From: a virus
Length of the DNA: 35,974 bases
Strand: one strand, 5' to 3'
Virus record (IMG/VR): IMGVR_UViG_3300025617_000058
Span: 1 to 35,974 of that record
Shown here: positions 4,767-34,820 of the stretch, one piece after another
Position numbering within the stretch: position 1 is the stretch's first letter
Layout of the letters: each line of letters begins with the position of its first letter
Translations under genes and position numbers: made by a program
Notes under the pieces: generated by a model
The model's input: the letters and a program-made list of their open reading frames with translations, nothing else
The model's database searches: none
What the model was told of the DNA's origin: nothing

Positions 4767-5357
4767 CTAGTCCTCTTCAGAGTTCTTCAAATCTTCTGCT
4801 TCTTGCTCCGCTATTTCTTGTTCTGCAAGAAGTTTTTCTATTCCACGTTGTTTGCGCTTTTCGTTTTTCTTACGTTTTGTTTCTTCGTATTCGCCGATAA
4901 ATTCTTCCATGTGACCATTTGAGATGTAGTGAATTTCTTCAATATCGTCTGCATGTTCAGCGAGTTCACCGAAAATGTTTGCTTTCTCTGTCGCTTTATA
5001 CTTAATGTATGTTTGACGCTTCTCTTTCTGAATACGTCTAAGGTAAGCATAATAGATAATTTGTGTAAAATATGCAAATGGATTGTTTGATTTTTCTGGA
5101 TTAAAATTGTCAATATATGCAAGGCAATTTTCGATACCGTCTGAAATCATATCGTCTTTGAACGTATAGTTCATAAAGTTGGGTCGATAAGATAGACGCT
5201 GTGCAATCAACAGAAAACATTCACCAACGTATTCTGGTACTCTGGGTCTGTCATCACCCGATGCTTCTGCATCATTTACTACTTCTTTATAAGCCTTGAG
5301 TGCTTCCAAGAACTTCTTATTGTCCACATAATGAACACTTACTTTTTTCTTTGCCAT
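4767..5357 (-). CDS. 55: gp55-type late-transcription sigma factor
   Basis: A 196-residue diverged sigma factor that directs host RNA polymerase to TATAAATA late promoters. Residues about 66-114 (FKDDMISDGIENCLAYIDNF, then NPFAYFTQIIYYAYLRRIQKEKRQ) match sigma region 2, the core-binding and -10-recognising helices. The C-terminal 60 residues are highly charged and probably helical. The length is near T4 gp55 (185). AGGAG lies 10 bases before ATG. It is the first gene after the sigma70-like promoter at 5416-5444, so it should be made early by unmodified host polymerase. It then serves the eight TATAAATA boxes seen elsewhere in the window. Confidence 0.92.
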   Translation of the reverse strand: MAKKKVSVHYVDNKKFLEALKAYKEVVNDAEASGDDRPRVPEYVGECFLLIAQRLSYRPNFMNYTFKDDMISDGIENCLAYIDNFNPEKSNNPFAYFTQIIYYAYLRRIQKEKRQTYIKYKATEKANIFGELAEHADDIEEIHYISNGHMEEFIGEYEETKRKKNEKRKQRGIEKLLAEQEIAEQEAEDLKNSEED

Positions 5358-5415
5358 AATTCAGTTTCTCCTGTTTTGGGTGTATGCCTCCCACGCTTGG
5401 ATTAATATAGTTCAC

Positions 5416-5444
5416 AATATACAACATTCCTGGTTAAATGTCAA
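5416..5444 (-). promoter_or_regulatory. Sigma70-type early promoter for the 55-47-46 operon
   Basis: On the minus strand, TTGACA (5444-5439) is followed by a 17-base spacer and TATATT (5421-5416). This is a near-consensus host sigma70 promoter, 59 bases upstream of the gene 55 ATG, and it fits early expression of the sigma factor and the gp46/47 nuclease. Confidence 0.85.
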
Positions 5445-5528
5445 GGGAATTGTACACTTTTTTGGTAAAATAAATTATTTTGGTAATTGTTGATAACTTT
5501 CCCACTTTTCCCTTGACTTTCCCTTGAC
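5440..5528. repeat. Three copies of CCCTTGAC around the divergent promoters
   Basis: Copies lie at 5510-5517 and 5521-5528 (plus, 11 bases apart, about one helical turn) and at 5440-5447 (minus). Each contains a TTGAC -35 core. The repeats may be promoter duplications or an operator; no binding protein can be named. Confidence 0.5.
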
Positions 5529-5541
5529 AATGGTGTATATT
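5513..5541 (+). promoter_or_regulatory. Divergent sigma70-type promoter on the plus strand
   Basis: TTGACT (5513-5518), a 17-base spacer and TATATT (5536-5541) read toward higher coordinates. The element matches the minus-strand promoter for gene 55 in spacing and -10 box and shares the CCCTTGAC context. No plus-strand gene follows; the transcript would be antisense to the 5601-6035 gene and then uvsW. Confidence 0.55.
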
Positions 5542-5600
5542 ACAGATGTTGAGATGATAATATCTAATTGTATCTACTAATGAATAGTGATTTGGTTGGG

Positions 5601-8688: not shown

Positions 8689-8696
8689 TATTTATA
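8689..8696 (-). promoter_or_regulatory. Late promoter TATAAATA for the 70-residue gene and downstream
   Basis: An exact box, 33 bases before ATG 8655. It lies 5 bases downstream of the T-run of the gene 23 terminator, so transcription is stopped and restarted within about 45 bases. Confidence 0.88.
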
Positions 8697-8701
8697 AGCA
8701 T

Positions 8702-8733
8702 AAAAAAAGGGGCAGTCCGAAGACCACCCCTTT
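8702..8733 (-). terminator. Intrinsic terminator after gene 23
   Basis: On the minus strand, AAAGGGG-TG-GTC, a UUCG tetraloop, then GAC-TG-CCCCTTT and T7. The GGGG/CCCC and GTC/GAC pairs are joined by two wobble pairs. It lies 28 bases past the gene 23 stop. This is a textbook rho-independent terminator with an extra-stable loop. Confidence 0.95.
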
Positions 8734-10066: not shown

Positions 10067-10110
10067 AAAAACATTCCGAAGTCTGTTCGTAATACTATTT
10101 ATACGGACTT
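10067..10110 (-). other. Weak hairpin enclosing the gene 23 late promoter
   Basis: Pairs AAGTC/GACTT (10079-10083 with 10106-10110) and CGTA/TACG (10088-10091 with 10102-10105) are separated by a 4-base bulge. A U5 stretch (10071-10067) lies 7 bases past the base of the stem. Only 9 pairs, so it could be chance. Confidence 0.35.
10096..10103 (-). promoter_or_regulatory. Late promoter TATAAATA for gene 23
   Basis: An exact box followed by GTATTACG, 74 bases before the gene 23 ATG and just after the gene 22 stop. It sits in the loop of a weak inverted repeat (AAGTC at 10079-10083 with GACTT at 10106-10110). Confidence 0.9.
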
Positions 10111-11203
10111 ACTTCCTCATGCTTGAAAGAGTTCTAGCATATACTGACATTGATTCCGACAACTCTTTTTGTGGTTCAGAACCATCATCAATGCTTTCTT
10201 CTTTTTCTGCGCCAGTCGCCCTTACTTTAGGGAAATAAGATTCCTTGATAGTTTCTAACTTCTCACGGTACTGGTCAATAGTCTCAAACTCTACTCCTTC
10301 TGCTAGAGAACGCAATTTGTCAGCATCAACGTCTACGAGACCATTGGTTGCTTCAGCAAGTGCTTTCTCTGCTTTGAATTCGTCTAGTTCCTTTTTCATA
10401 GCAACGGACTTCTCAAATTCTTCGTTCAATTTTGCTTCAAGGTCTTCAGACTTTGTAGCAAGTTCGTCAACAAGGTCTGCTTTCTCTTCAGGAACATCAA
10501 TGTAGTTCTCTACGAAAAGATTTTTCAACCCAGCCATGAATTCTTCTGCGATTTCAGTACGAATACCTTTTTCGATGGCAAGTGCGTTATCTTGTACCCA
10601 CGCTTCAACAACGTAGTTTAGATAATCGTCAACTTTCGCCGCTAGTTCTGTGCGGGCTTCATCAAGTTTAGTTTCGTATTCTGCTTCTACCTTTTCTACA
10701 ATGCTGTCAATGCTTTCTGTTACTTTTGCTTTGACTGCCGCTTCAAAGATAGTAGTCGCTTTATTTTTAAATTCTTCTGAAAGTTCTGCATCAGAACCTG
10801 TAAGTAGTGCGTCTACATCAGACTGTACATCTACTTTCATTTCTTCTACTTCTTCTTTCATTTTCTTTTTCTTTGCGGATGCATAGAGTTTACCTTCTTC
10901 GGCTTCCTCTTCGTCATCGTCATCATCTTCCTCATCATCTGCATCGTCATCTTCGTCTTCGTCTTCGTCTTCTTCTTCTTCAGACTTGACAGACTTCTTT
11001 GCTTCTTCGAGGTCTTCTTCTGCCGCTTCTTCAGCAACTACTTCTTCGGTAGTCTCTTCTGCGACTTCTTCAGTTTTATCTTCGGCGATAACATCTTCAA
11101 CTGCATCTTCAGAGGCTTGAACTGCGTCCAACTCTTCTGATACTGTATCTTCTGTCATCACTTCTTTTTCTTCAGCAATTTGCTCTGAGAATGTTTTTAG
11201 CAT
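10109..11203 (-). CDS. 22: gp22 prohead core scaffold protein
   Basis: A 364-residue internal scaffold around which gp23 assembles, degraded by gp21 during head maturation. It is very acidic and almost all helix. The C-terminal SVYARTLSSMRK, the helical core (about 120-330) and the location directly before gene 23 identify it. An unusual hyperacidic run of Glu and Asp fills residues 75-103 and is followed by KKKK (111-114); T4 gp22 (269) has no such long tract, which accounts for much of the extra length. Many L/I-x-E sites suit multiple gp21 cuts. AGGAG is 9 bases before ATG, and an own late promoter lies 38 bases upstream. Confidence 0.93.
   Translation of the reverse strand: MLKTFSEQIAEEKEVMTEDTVSEELDAVQASEDAVEDVIAEDKTEEVAEETTEEVVAEEAAEEDLEEAKKSVKSEEEEDEDEDEDDDADDEEDDDDDEEEAEEGKLYASAKKKKMKEEVEEMKVDVQSDVDALLTGSDAELSEEFKNKATTIFEAAVKAKVTESIDSIVEKVEAEYETKLDEARTELAAKVDDYLNYVVEAWVQDNALAIEKGIRTEIAEEFMAGLKNLFVENYIDVPEEKADLVDELATKSEDLEAKLNEEFEKSVAMKKELDEFKAEKALAEATNGLVDVDADKLRSLAEGVEFETIDQYREKLETIKESYFPKVRATGAEKEESIDDGSEPQKELSESMSVYARTLSSMRK
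10893..10983 (-). repeat. GAN/GAY low-complexity tract in gene 22
   Basis: Near-perfect run of GAA, GAG, GAT and GAC codons encoding residues 75-103 of gp22. The trinucleotide-like repeat could vary in length by slippage. Confidence 0.8.
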
Positions 11204-12684: not shown

Positions 12685-12841
12685 TCGTACTTTCCTCTTC
12701 TGCATCTAATAGACTTGAAGCAATACTTTTCTTCATATCTTCTAGTTTTGCAAATGCTTTACCGTTAAGTGCATTTGTTACGTTATCCTTTAATGCTCCA
12801 GCGTCTTGTGTTTCGATGCTTTTAATAATATCTATTGTCAT
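12671..12841 (-). CDS. 67: Small prohead core protein, gp67-like
   Basis: A 56-residue protein in the position of T4 gene 67 (80 residues, internal core, cut by gp21). The pattern is a short helix (IIKSIETQDAGALKDNVTNAL), then AKLEDMKKSIASSLLDAEEE; AKLE fits the L-x-E protease site. The start is ATG 12841, one base after the portal stop, with GGAG 9 bases upstream. A longer reading beginning inside gene 20 lacks support. It overlaps the next gene by 14 bases. Confidence 0.65.
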   Translation of the reverse strand: MTIDIIKSIETQDAGALKDNVTNALNGKAFAKLEDMKKSIASSLLDAEEESTNEDV

Positions 12842-12842
12842 T

Positions 12843-14327
12843 TTAGAATTCTCCATCATCAGGTTCACCAATTATTCCATTTTCTTTCTCAAAAGTAAGG
12901 CGTTCTTCCATTGCCTCAATATCTTCATCTGACATCTTCAAAACATTTTTTAGAACATCTTGTCTTGTGAAGTATTTTCCAACATACTGGTCAACTTCTT
13001 GCAATAGTGCCAATCTTTCTCTCATAATCTCCGCATTCTTCAACTCTGTGAAGTGTGTGTCTGCACGGAAATCATAATAAATATATTCTTTGATGTTATC
13101 CCAGTCTTCTGGATTAATAACACCTTTTAAAATGAGTTGCTTTCTTAGCAAATCGTCAAACAAGTGTGTGAAGCGTACTCTTATCTTCTTAATAAACTTG
13201 TTAAACTTAATCTCATCTCTACTAATCTCTTCTCCTCTACCGATAGAGAATGACTGTTCGCTGTCAAGGCGTGAAGTTGGAACGTTTAGTGACTTAAAGA
13301 GTTTATTCTTAAAGTAATTAACGTCATCCATCTCACCAAGATTTTGACCACCAGGTAGAGTATCAACTTCAGTCCCACGACCGCCTTCTCTACGAGGCAT
13401 CCAATAATCTTCAAGCATTGACATATGCTTGCGGTCATCTTTAATCTCACCAGTAGATGCATCATATACAATCTTGTTCTTGTAACGTGCCATGATATCT
13501 CTAAGGTATGCTTCTGCTTTACCTTTAGGCAAGTTACCAACATCAACGTAGAAAATTCTGCGCTCTGGCGCACGAGACAGTCTGTAAATTACTGTCGCAT
13601 CTTCTACGGCACGGAGTTGATTGAGGGGTTTAATCGCTTTGTGTAGGTATGAAAGAACTGTCTTTCTATCTCTATCAAGCAAACCCGATGTGCAGTATGT
13701 AATACTATCAGGAGCGATTTTTACTCCCTTTTCTGCACCAGTCAATCCGTCTTCATTATATACGAAATACTCTTCTACTTGTTCAAAGATACTTACGTTT
13801 GTATCTGCATCTTTTCCTTTTACAACCTTACGCACTTTCTTAATGTTGCGTGGGTCGATATATCTTAATTCTGTTAACCCTTTTTGCGGGTTCTTTGTGT
13901 CGATTACATTGTGATAGTACAATCTACCATCAACATACCAACGCTTAAAAATGTCTGCACCGTAATTATTAAAATCTAACAGTCTACAAACATTCTGAAA
14001 TTCTTCGTGTATTTTCTTCTTTACACCTGCGCTGTAGTCAACTCTATCTAAATTCAATGATACAGGTACATCTTCATCTTCTTGTACAACTGCTTCATTA
14101 ACGATATCGTCTACTGCCGCTTCACATTCTGGCTGTAATGCCATTTCACGGTATCTACTAATAAGGTCTGCTTCATTCTTAGCAGTACCTTCCAAATCAA
14201 GGTAAGTGCCAAACGCTCCTCCACCCGCAACTTCAGTAGCGCCGTCATCACTAGTCGGTGCCACAAAAGATGGTGGAGTTTCATCGCCTGAAACTCTGTT
14301 TATTTCAAATCCAAATAACTTTGCCAT
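12843..14327 (-). CDS. 20: gp20 portal protein
   Basis: A 494-residue portal vertex protein. It forms the dodecameric ring through which DNA is packed and to which the neck attaches. Family segments are clear: YREMALQPECEAAVDDIVNE near 60-80, FNNYGADIFKRWYVDGRLYY, LRYIDPRNIKKVRKV, RAPERRIFYVDVGNLPKGKAE, and MLEDYWMPRREGGRGTEVDTLPGGQNLGE in the clip and stem region. The length is close to T4 gp20 (524). A late promoter 46 bases upstream is nested in an inverted repeat (14354-14393). Confidence 0.98.
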   Translation of the reverse strand: MAKLFGFEINRVSGDETPPSFVAPTSDDGATEVAGGGAFGTYLDLEGTAKNEADLISRYREMALQPECEAAVDDIVNEAVVQEDEDVPVSLNLDRVDYSAGVKKKIHEEFQNVCRLLDFNNYGADIFKRWYVDGRLYYHNVIDTKNPQKGLTELRYIDPRNIKKVRKVVKGKDADTNVSIFEQVEEYFVYNEDGLTGAEKGVKIAPDSITYCTSGLLDRDRKTVLSYLHKAIKPLNQLRAVEDATVIYRLSRAPERRIFYVDVGNLPKGKAEAYLRDIMARYKNKIVYDASTGEIKDDRKHMSMLEDYWMPRREGGRGTEVDTLPGGQNLGEMDDVNYFKNKLFKSLNVPTSRLDSEQSFSIGRGEEISRDEIKFNKFIKKIRVRFTHLFDDLLRKQLILKGVINPEDWDNIKEYIYYDFRADTHFTELKNAEIMRERLALLQEVDQYVGKYFTRQDVLKNVLKMSDEDIEAMEERLTFEKENGIIGEPDDGEF

Positions 14328-14353
14328 ACTATTTTATACCTTTATCTAAATTA

Positions 14354-14393
14354 TTCTAGGGGACCTATAATACTATTTATAGACCCCCTAGAA
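14354..14393 (-). other. Inverted repeat enclosing the gene 20 late promoter
   Basis: A perfect 9-base arm pair TTCTAGGGG/CCCCTAGAA (14354-14362 with 14385-14393), a 2x2 internal loop, then CTATA/TATAG (14365-14369 with 14378-14382) and an 8-base loop. TATAAATA occupies the inner right arm and part of the loop. The stem lies 10 bases past the gene 19 stop. There is no clear U-run, so termination is uncertain. Confidence 0.8.
14374..14381 (-). promoter_or_regulatory. Late promoter TATAAATA for gene 20
   Basis: An exact box followed by GTATTATAG, 46 bases before the portal ATG, near the top of the hairpin at 14354-14393. Confidence 0.9.
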
Positions 14394-14403
14394 CTGGTTT
14401 AGA

Positions 14404-14928
14404 TTAGATTACACCGTTACTGATATCAGTCCAGTAGTCATACTGGAATGTAACTGTGAATTCTTCAATTGTGTCATTGGAATCCCAAGCAACATCAATA
14501 GGTGAGATATCGGCAGGGAAGATACCTACAAAATTGTAAGTCTTCAATGTCGAACCATCTTTTGAAAATTGCTTGATAGTTCCGATAGATTTCTGCAATA
14601 GAGGTGATGGAGTACCAATGTTTAGAATGTGCGAGTTAATAGTCGCCATCCATTGCTCCAAACCTGTTCTTACGTTAAAATCTTCGTCATTTATTACTGT
14701 TACAGTCCATTCTGCGAATGTTCTGTTTCCTGGGACTTTCATAGTACGACCGAAGTAAGGTACTTCGATAACACCTAGTGTATCACCTGGTAACTGTGAT
14801 GCTTTCGCCATGAATGTGAACTTTTGGTTGTCGCCCCCATAAGGGTTTGTCATTTCACATTCAAAAAGGTTACTTCTTGCACCGCCACCAGTCAATTGTC
14901 CTCTAAATTCGTCAATTGCAAATGCCAT
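14404..14928 (-). CDS. 19: gp19 tail tube protein
   Basis: A 174-residue subunit of the rigid inner tail tube. It begins AIDEFRGQLTGGGARSNLFE, then FTFMAKASQLPGDTLGVIEVPYFGRTMKVPGNRTFAEW; this P-G-R...F.EWTVT core is diagnostic for T4 gp19 (163 residues). The final FVGIFPADISPIDVAWDSND followed by FTVTFQYDYW is the closing beta sheet. GGAG is 8 bases before ATG. It has no TATAAATA of its own and is probably cotranscribed with gene 18. Confidence 0.97.
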   Translation of the reverse strand: MAFAIDEFRGQLTGGGARSNLFECEMTNPYGGDNQKFTFMAKASQLPGDTLGVIEVPYFGRTMKVPGNRTFAEWTVTVINDEDFNVRTGLEQWMATINSHILNIGTPSPLLQKSIGTIKQFSKDGSTLKTYNFVGIFPADISPIDVAWDSNDTIEEFTVTFQYDYWTDISNGVI

Positions 14929-16872: not shown

Positions 16873-16925
16873 GAAGAATATGGTTTCAATCATATTATTA
16901 TTTATATGACTATTTAGTATTCTTC
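16873..16925 (-). other. Inverted repeat enclosing the gene 18 late promoter
   Basis: An 8-base outer pair GAAGAATA/TATTCTTC (16873-16880 with 16918-16925) and an inner pair CATAT/ATATG (16891-16895 with 16904-16908) around an 8-base loop. No U-run follows. It fills the gap between the gene 17 stop and gene 18. Confidence 0.65.
16899..16906 (-). promoter_or_regulatory. Late promoter TATAAATA for genes 18-19
   Basis: An exact box followed by ATAATATG, 64 bases before the sheath ATG. It straddles the apical stem and loop of the inverted repeat 16873-16925. Confidence 0.88.
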
Positions 16926-21412: not shown

Positions 21413-21485
21413 AATCTTTTCCTGTCCTAAGTTTTTACATATCTACATATATTTAGTTCACAAAGAACCACCACTAGCAAATATG

Positions 21486-21511
21486 GAGAGAGGGGTTTAA
21501 CCCCCTCTCTC
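21486..21511 (-). terminator. Hairpin terminator after the 1923-residue gene
   Basis: Ten perfect pairs GAGAGAGGGG/CCCCTCTCTC (21486-21495 with 21502-21511) around a 6-base loop, beginning 9 bases past the stop codon. The following U-tract is weak (CATATTT), so efficiency is uncertain; it could also protect the mRNA 3' end. Confidence 0.75.
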
Positions 21512-21520
21512 TTTGCTTTC

Positions 21521-34772: not shown

Positions 34773-34820
34773 AAAAAATTCTAAAGTCTAATACTATAAA
34801 AGTATTTATAACTTAGAATT
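34773..34820 (-). terminator. Terminator-like hairpin after gene 8 with late promoter inside
   Basis: Outer stem AATTCTAA-GT with AC-T-TTAGAATT (34811-34820 with 34777-34787, one bulged base), inner stem AATACT/AGTATT (34790-34795 with 34801-34806), then T6 on the minus strand (34778-34773). The outer arm overlaps the last codons of gene 8. TATAAATA (34803-34810) spans the inner arm. Confidence 0.65.
34803..34810 (-). promoter_or_regulatory. Late promoter TATAAATA for the 2302-residue gene
   Basis: An exact box followed by CTTTTATAG, 56 bases before ATG 34746, immediately after the gene 8 stop and inside the hairpin 34773-34820. Confidence 0.88.

Follow-up and report, generated by a model that had tools for sequence, protein, structure and literature searches.

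A T4-type late promoter enclosed in a conserved RNA hairpin between the tail-tube and portal genes of a marine phage, a candidate boundary between late transcription units

Introduction

The junction between the tail-tube gene 19 and the portal gene 20 in a 35,974-nucleotide stretch of virus DNA (IMG/VR record IMGVR_UViG_3300025617_000058, positions 1-35,974; hereafter the window) raises the question of what a hairpin with a late promoter in its apex does between two late genes. The window represents part of a T4-like marine phage. Its late genes (terminase 17, sheath 18, tube 19, portal 20, scaffold 22 and capsid 23) are carried by the minus strand, and its closest cultured phages based on the portal were Pelagibacter phage Mosig and Methylophilales phage Melnitz (~58% identity each). 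On balance, the analyses lean towards an RNA element that separates two late transcription units, combining a barrier for the upstream transcript with an exemption for the portal transcript.

The hairpin and its enclosed promoter

The minus strand at 14393-14354, within the 76-base gap between genes 19 and 20, reads TTCTAGGGGGTCTATAAATAGTATTATAGGTCCCCTAGAA, or by parts TTCTAGGGG-GT-CTATAA-[ATAGTA]-TTATAG-GT-CCCCTAGAA. A preliminary description, made from the sequence alone, had reported an inverted repeat of 9+5 base pairs; the repeat is real but longer, with 9 and 6 Watson-Crick pairs joined by a tandem G.U/U.G into 17 continuous RNA pairs, or 18 if G14394.U14353 is included. The late promoter lies inside this hairpin, as that description had it, with the box at 14381-14374. 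As in T4-type late promoters, an exact TATAAATA precedes a late gene and the window encodes a gp55 homologue, the sigma factor that would read TATAAATA boxes; these boxes occurred 11 times in the window (1.95 expected), 10 of the 11 on the coding strand. The T4 late box sits at -13 to -6 from the start (PMC1524935), and the +1 of the portal late promoter is predicted at about 14368. Given this T4 start point, the earlier proposal that both arms occur only in read-through RNA holds. The outer helix closes beside the portal Shine-Dalgarno sequence (Table 1).

Hairpin energies were compared with those of sequences in which the box was held fixed and the flanks were dinucleotide-shuffled (1000 shuffles per site), and none of the 1000 shuffles reached the hairpin energy at the 14374 box. 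The read-through-only pairing energy, which counts only pairing across the start between upstream and downstream RNA, was -27.2 kcal/mol (0/200 shuffles as low). An Rfam search of the window returned no match. Chance self-complementarity of AT-rich late promoter regions could be argued from the partial self-complementarity of late boxes and start regions themselves, and from weak window sites such as 12223 and 7946, which were not significant. Against the shuffles, the covariation and the box-centred enrichment in many lineages reported below, its probability is negligible, and a chance origin of the 14354 hairpin is already refuted.

Table 1. Coordinates of the promoter-hairpin element, the genes around it and the other box-in-hairpin sites of the window.
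Feature	Position	Strand	Description	Evidence
Core hairpin	14354..14393	-	arms TTCTAGGGGGTCTATAA and TTATAGGTCCCCTAGAA, 6-nucleotide loop	sequence, fold, shuffles, covariation
T4-type late box	14374..14381	-	TATAAATA, fills apical 5' arm and loop	exact match
Outer 7-base-pair helix	14344..14404	-	ATCTAAA (14404-14398) / TTTAGAT (14350-14344)	fold
Portal Shine-Dalgarno	14339..14342	-	AAGG, outside core hairpin	sequence
Gene 20	12843..14327	-	portal protein	Pfam Portal_T4, E 5e-182
Gene 19	14404..14928	-	tail tube	phrog_45 and Phage_T4_gp19
gp55 homologue	4767..5357	-	late sigma factor	phrog_234, E 2e-61
Second box-in-hairpin	16873..16925	-	genes 17/18, arms GAAGAATA/TATTCTTC	0/1000 shuffles
Third box-in-hairpin	10078..10115	-	genes 22/23, GAAGT/ACTTC and CGTA/TACG around TATAAATA (10103-10096)	
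Fourth box-in-hairpin	34773..34820	-	gene 8/next gene, ATTCTAAGT/ACTTTAGAAT around TATAAATA (34810-34803)	

Conservation in close relatives

The hairpin and box were kept in all close relatives found, which were recovered by portal similarity or by pattern (L009-L019 and L187-L192; 72-100% portal identity). Covariation was assessed on seven distinct sequences of the 19/20 core, using 500 shuffles and, as a control, partners slid by 1-3 columns. Five pairs had changed on both sides, with 10 double-changed cells compared to 4.0 in shuffles (0/500 as high) and 0-4 in the slid versions, and the covariation score was 0.286, compared to 0.05-0.13 with partners slid. The outer helix was kept in most relatives and had changed on both sides in L016/L018. 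The hairpin is therefore a conserved RNA structure, maintained by paired changes. Two of the checks suggested in the preliminary description came out in its favour: compensatory arm changes were found across relatives, both in this core and at the 22/23 site, and hairpins occurred more often at late boxes than they did after shuffling the flanks.

Within the 14-pair core, the cells departing from Watson-Crick pairing were all G.U in the sense direction, save a single unpaired cell, and the variable pairs showed no A.C on the sense RNA. As these departures are G.U only in the sense direction, selection acts, most simply, on the RNA reading through from gene 19 to gene 20. The same pattern disfavours the suggestion that the palindrome extrudes from the DNA or binds a dimeric protein at the promoter. 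The nearly palindromic arms would suit a cruciform or such a protein site, and the phage encodes an SbcCD-like palindrome endonuclease that makes DNA palindromes at least relevant; a DNA duplex site, however, would not favour G.U over A.C, and the arm sequence is completely different between lineages. A DNA-level role is thus highly improbable, and an antisense element or DNA palindrome was rejected on the G.U pattern.

The same gap across T4-like phages

About 200 portal loci were collected, including window-like, Acinetobacter-type and Melnitz-type loci and 18 named phages, and 81 non-redundant 19/20 gaps with a late box were analysed. Read-through-only energies of -8 kcal/mol or lower were found in 30 of the 81 gaps (7.0 expected), and of -14 kcal/mol or lower in 14 (0.33 expected). 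When the assumed box position was moved along the 81 gaps, pairing peaked sharply at the box (mean -9.3), falling to means of -2.9 and -2.3 at 24 bases upstream and downstream, respectively. Stability in the sense over the antisense direction also appeared biased (25 to 7), but this test was given less weight, as an even larger bias (71 to 9) appeared in a coding stretch 160 bases downstream.

The arms were unrelated in sequence between lineages (CCGATTGG/TCAATCGG in Morttis, GCGAGTG/CACTCGC in L088, GGGGGTGTC/GGACATCCCCC in L046). On the portal tree, the layout required at least 13 changes and occupied several well supported clades, including the window clade, the Melnitz and Morttis groups, L077/L084 and L034/L046. 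Layouts were assigned with fixed cut-offs, and their counts are approximate because some borderline loci were mislabelled, such as L076 and L085, classed as hairpin only despite a box in the stem. In L020, L021 and L028 the 19/20 gap held a U-tract terminator followed by a late box, and in some other lineages a hairpin alone, so that a hairpin boundary at 19/20 appears common while its placement varies.

Other junctions and other genomes

Across nine cultured T4-like genomes, 27 of the 130 sense intergenic TATAAATA boxes reached -8 kcal/mol (about 8.5 expected), and the hairpin profile peaked twice, on the box itself and about 30 bases upstream of it, the latter corresponding to a terminator followed by a promoter. 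The excess came mainly from Melnitz, Morttis and a T4-like coliphage, and less from ACG-2014f. Pelagibacter phage Mosig, P-RSM4 and S-RIM2 showed no excess at TATAAATA, indicating that the rule depends on lineage. As a positive control, the same test recovered the lysozyme gene e hairpin of the T4-like coliphage, established by experiment for its counterpart in T4 (PMC3014915); a reversed-box control (ATAAATAT) yielded 19 sites, too small a number to use.

The threshold of -8 kcal/mol was reached before the neck gene in 19 of 35 non-redundant loci (2.7 expected), often with a Shine-Dalgarno GGAG in the 3' arm, and compensatory variants were present. Before gene 19 of P-RSM1-like cyanophages, a hairpin of 16 pairs enclosed the box, and an A-U pair was exchanged for U-A.

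Several individual sites were also recorded. In many marine T4-like phages, the neck gene (phrog_211) is preceded by a late box in a hairpin loop with GGAG in the 3' arm (L399-L478, just 5' of the match; L020:1479; L021:2511), and a T-run follows some of these hairpins; judged by sequence, such an element with a T-run would be a terminator, a promoter and a ribosome-site switch in one. In the window itself, the gap before the neck gene (21413-21520) contains a strong hairpin, GAGAGAGGGGGTTAAACCCCTCTCTC, and then a ACTAAATA box. The P-RSM1-like hairpins (L135, minus strand near 12802; L376-L391) carry TCTAAATA at the apex and show compensatory changes. Before gp5 of Melnitz (76,320-76,360; L117:16320-16360), a textbook terminator, AATCCCTTG...CAAGGGATTTTTT, has TATAAATA in its loop.

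Other box-in-hairpin sites of the window

The preliminary description had the layout recurring at 16873-16925 and 34773-34820 and weakly at 10079-10110, and all three recurrences stood. The stem between genes 17 and 18 encloses both ACTAAATA (16918-16911) and TATAAATA (16906-16899), and the stem with a TAAATA-type box was kept in the relatives seen (L015, L017 and L019). The gene 8 site (box 34803) gave P = 0.009 against flank shuffles and is followed by TTTTT; its hairpin and box persisted in L217-L223 with different arms. Taken alone, the 22/23 site (box 10096) was weak (P = 0.069, flank shuffles), although 45/45 cells were paired across five sequences and two pairs had changed on both sides; column shuffles alone were not significant there (99/500). 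None of the remaining window boxes, including the weak sites 12223 and 7946, had a significant hairpin across the box in flank shuffles, and the 6415 box, which is inside a gene, had stable hairpins on both sides and none across it.

Two further gaps of the window were noted. After the capsid gene 23 (8689-8733), a CUUCGG terminator is directly followed by a TATAAATA box, a tandem form of boundary. The 243-base AT-rich gap from the gp55 gene to the next open reading frame (5358-5600) contains TTGACA/TATATT, a pair resembling sigma-70 elements, together with an inverted repeat around TCAAGGGAA/TTCCCTTGA.

Function of the 19/20 element

One function to be weighed was true intrinsic termination: upstream polymerase would stop at a terminator whose loop holds the late promoter, and this promoter would restart transcription. 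The stem at 14354-14393 is stable and GC-rich and marks the end of the 18-19 operon, the 19/20 gap of relatives holds classic terminators, and U-tract terminators that enclose a box in the loop are found elsewhere (before the neck gene of L020/L021/L412/L423, Melnitz before gp5, and window 34773-34820). However, the stem is followed by TAATTTAGAT, which is no U-tract, the site was not called by the terminator scan, and the U-tract was also missing in the close relatives L014/L015. At this gap, at least 5 T in 8 were found in only 3 of 15 box-in-hairpin loci, compared to 5 of 10 tandem and 16 of 29 plain-hairpin loci. A terminator, which the preliminary description had considered, was rejected in the canonical sense at 14354 because of the lacking U-tract, and the box-in-hairpin class had fewer U-tracts; the wider terminator reading is unlikely, while a minority of box-in-hairpin elements elsewhere look like terminators.

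A translational switch of the gene e type, in which the read-through hairpin blocks portal translation and the late RNA is free, would be suggested by the geometry shared with T4 e, soc and I-TevI (PMC3014915, PMC2988022). The outer helix of the window closes beside the portal Shine-Dalgarno, which in other lineages (L317, L299, L305, L076 and L088) lies under the 3' arm or outer helix. In L009, identical to the window here, its unpaired value was nevertheless 0.79 for read-through and 0.75 for late RNA, and in L016 0.94 and 0.35, respectively. Moreover, the upstream genes are themselves late-type structural genes. Terminase and tail genes 17-19 are late in T4. Since the portal Shine-Dalgarno is not hidden, the 14354 hairpin is not a plain gene e switch, and this reading is quite unlikely; sequestration was rejected in the window clade, where the site is equally or more open in read-through RNA, and holds in other lineages.

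For the boundary between late units, the transcription start point and the hairpin as a 3'-end barrier are predicted parts. Polymerase reading on from genes 18-19 would produce RNA with both arms, which would fold, immediately after the gene 19 stop codon, into a very stable hairpin. RNA started at the late promoter in the apex would begin within the 3' arm and could not fold, leaving the portal's own late RNA with a free leader and a free Shine-Dalgarno; the portal transcript would be exempt because its start lies inside the hairpin. A 3'-end barrier for the abundant sheath/tube message, through an exonuclease stop, a pause or weak termination, appears the likeliest function, and most of the portal protein, needed in few copies, would consequently come from the portal's own promoter. 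As a second choice, the adjoining outer helix would hinder the portal start.

Some considerations weigh against the boundary. A box without a strong hairpin across it was found in 47 of 130 non-redundant portal loci, so that the element is not essential in the family; a hairpin without a U-tract may not stop polymerase; and the same layout covers the Shine-Dalgarno in other lineages, so that translation may be the shared target.

It is conceivable, though tentative, that late units of T4-like phages commonly begin inside a hairpin that only the preceding unit's RNA can form. If so, a one-piece boundary would end or stabilise the upstream message and exempt its own, with the gene e switch as a special case.

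Comparison with known systems

In the literature on promoters inside terminators, nothing closer than T4 was found, and such elements between late structural genes were not described in the literature searched, which excluded most subscription papers. T4 e, soc, gene 49, I-TevI and segB, as well as Aeh1 mobE, have hairpins whose 5' strand contains or closely follows a late promoter; the resulting exemption has been established for T4 e and I-TevI, with soc, 49 and others described as further cases (PMC3014915, PMC2988022). The window element resembles the T4 e-type hairpins in that upstream-initiated RNA can form a hairpin whose 5' part is missing from late RNA. Those hairpins hide the late gene's ribosome binding site on early and middle transcripts, whereas the window hairpin leaves this site open and separates two late-type genes.

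A stable hairpin beside, not over, the ribosome binding site is shared with seg43(25) of Aeromonas phage 25, which has a very stable hairpin just 5' of the site that does not hide it and is left unexplained (PMC2988022). Unlike the portal, seg43(25) is a homing endonuclease gene, and the passage on it describes neither conservation of its hairpin nor a promoter in the apex. With T4-type intrinsic terminators, which occupy the 19/20 gap in other phages, the element shares a GC-rich stem at an operon end. Compared to T4-type gp55-dependent late promoters the box is identical, and the difference is its placement in a hairpin.

What is new is the use between late structural genes, the covariation evidence, how widely the layout is spread, and that neither standard function holds in the window clade. 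A handful of curiosities from T4 thereby become a design rule that can be measured across T4-like phages: when a late start lies inside the hairpin of its neighbour, upstream and downstream messages can be adjusted independently within 76 bases, which makes testable how adjacent genes yield sheath, tube and portal proteins in such different amounts.
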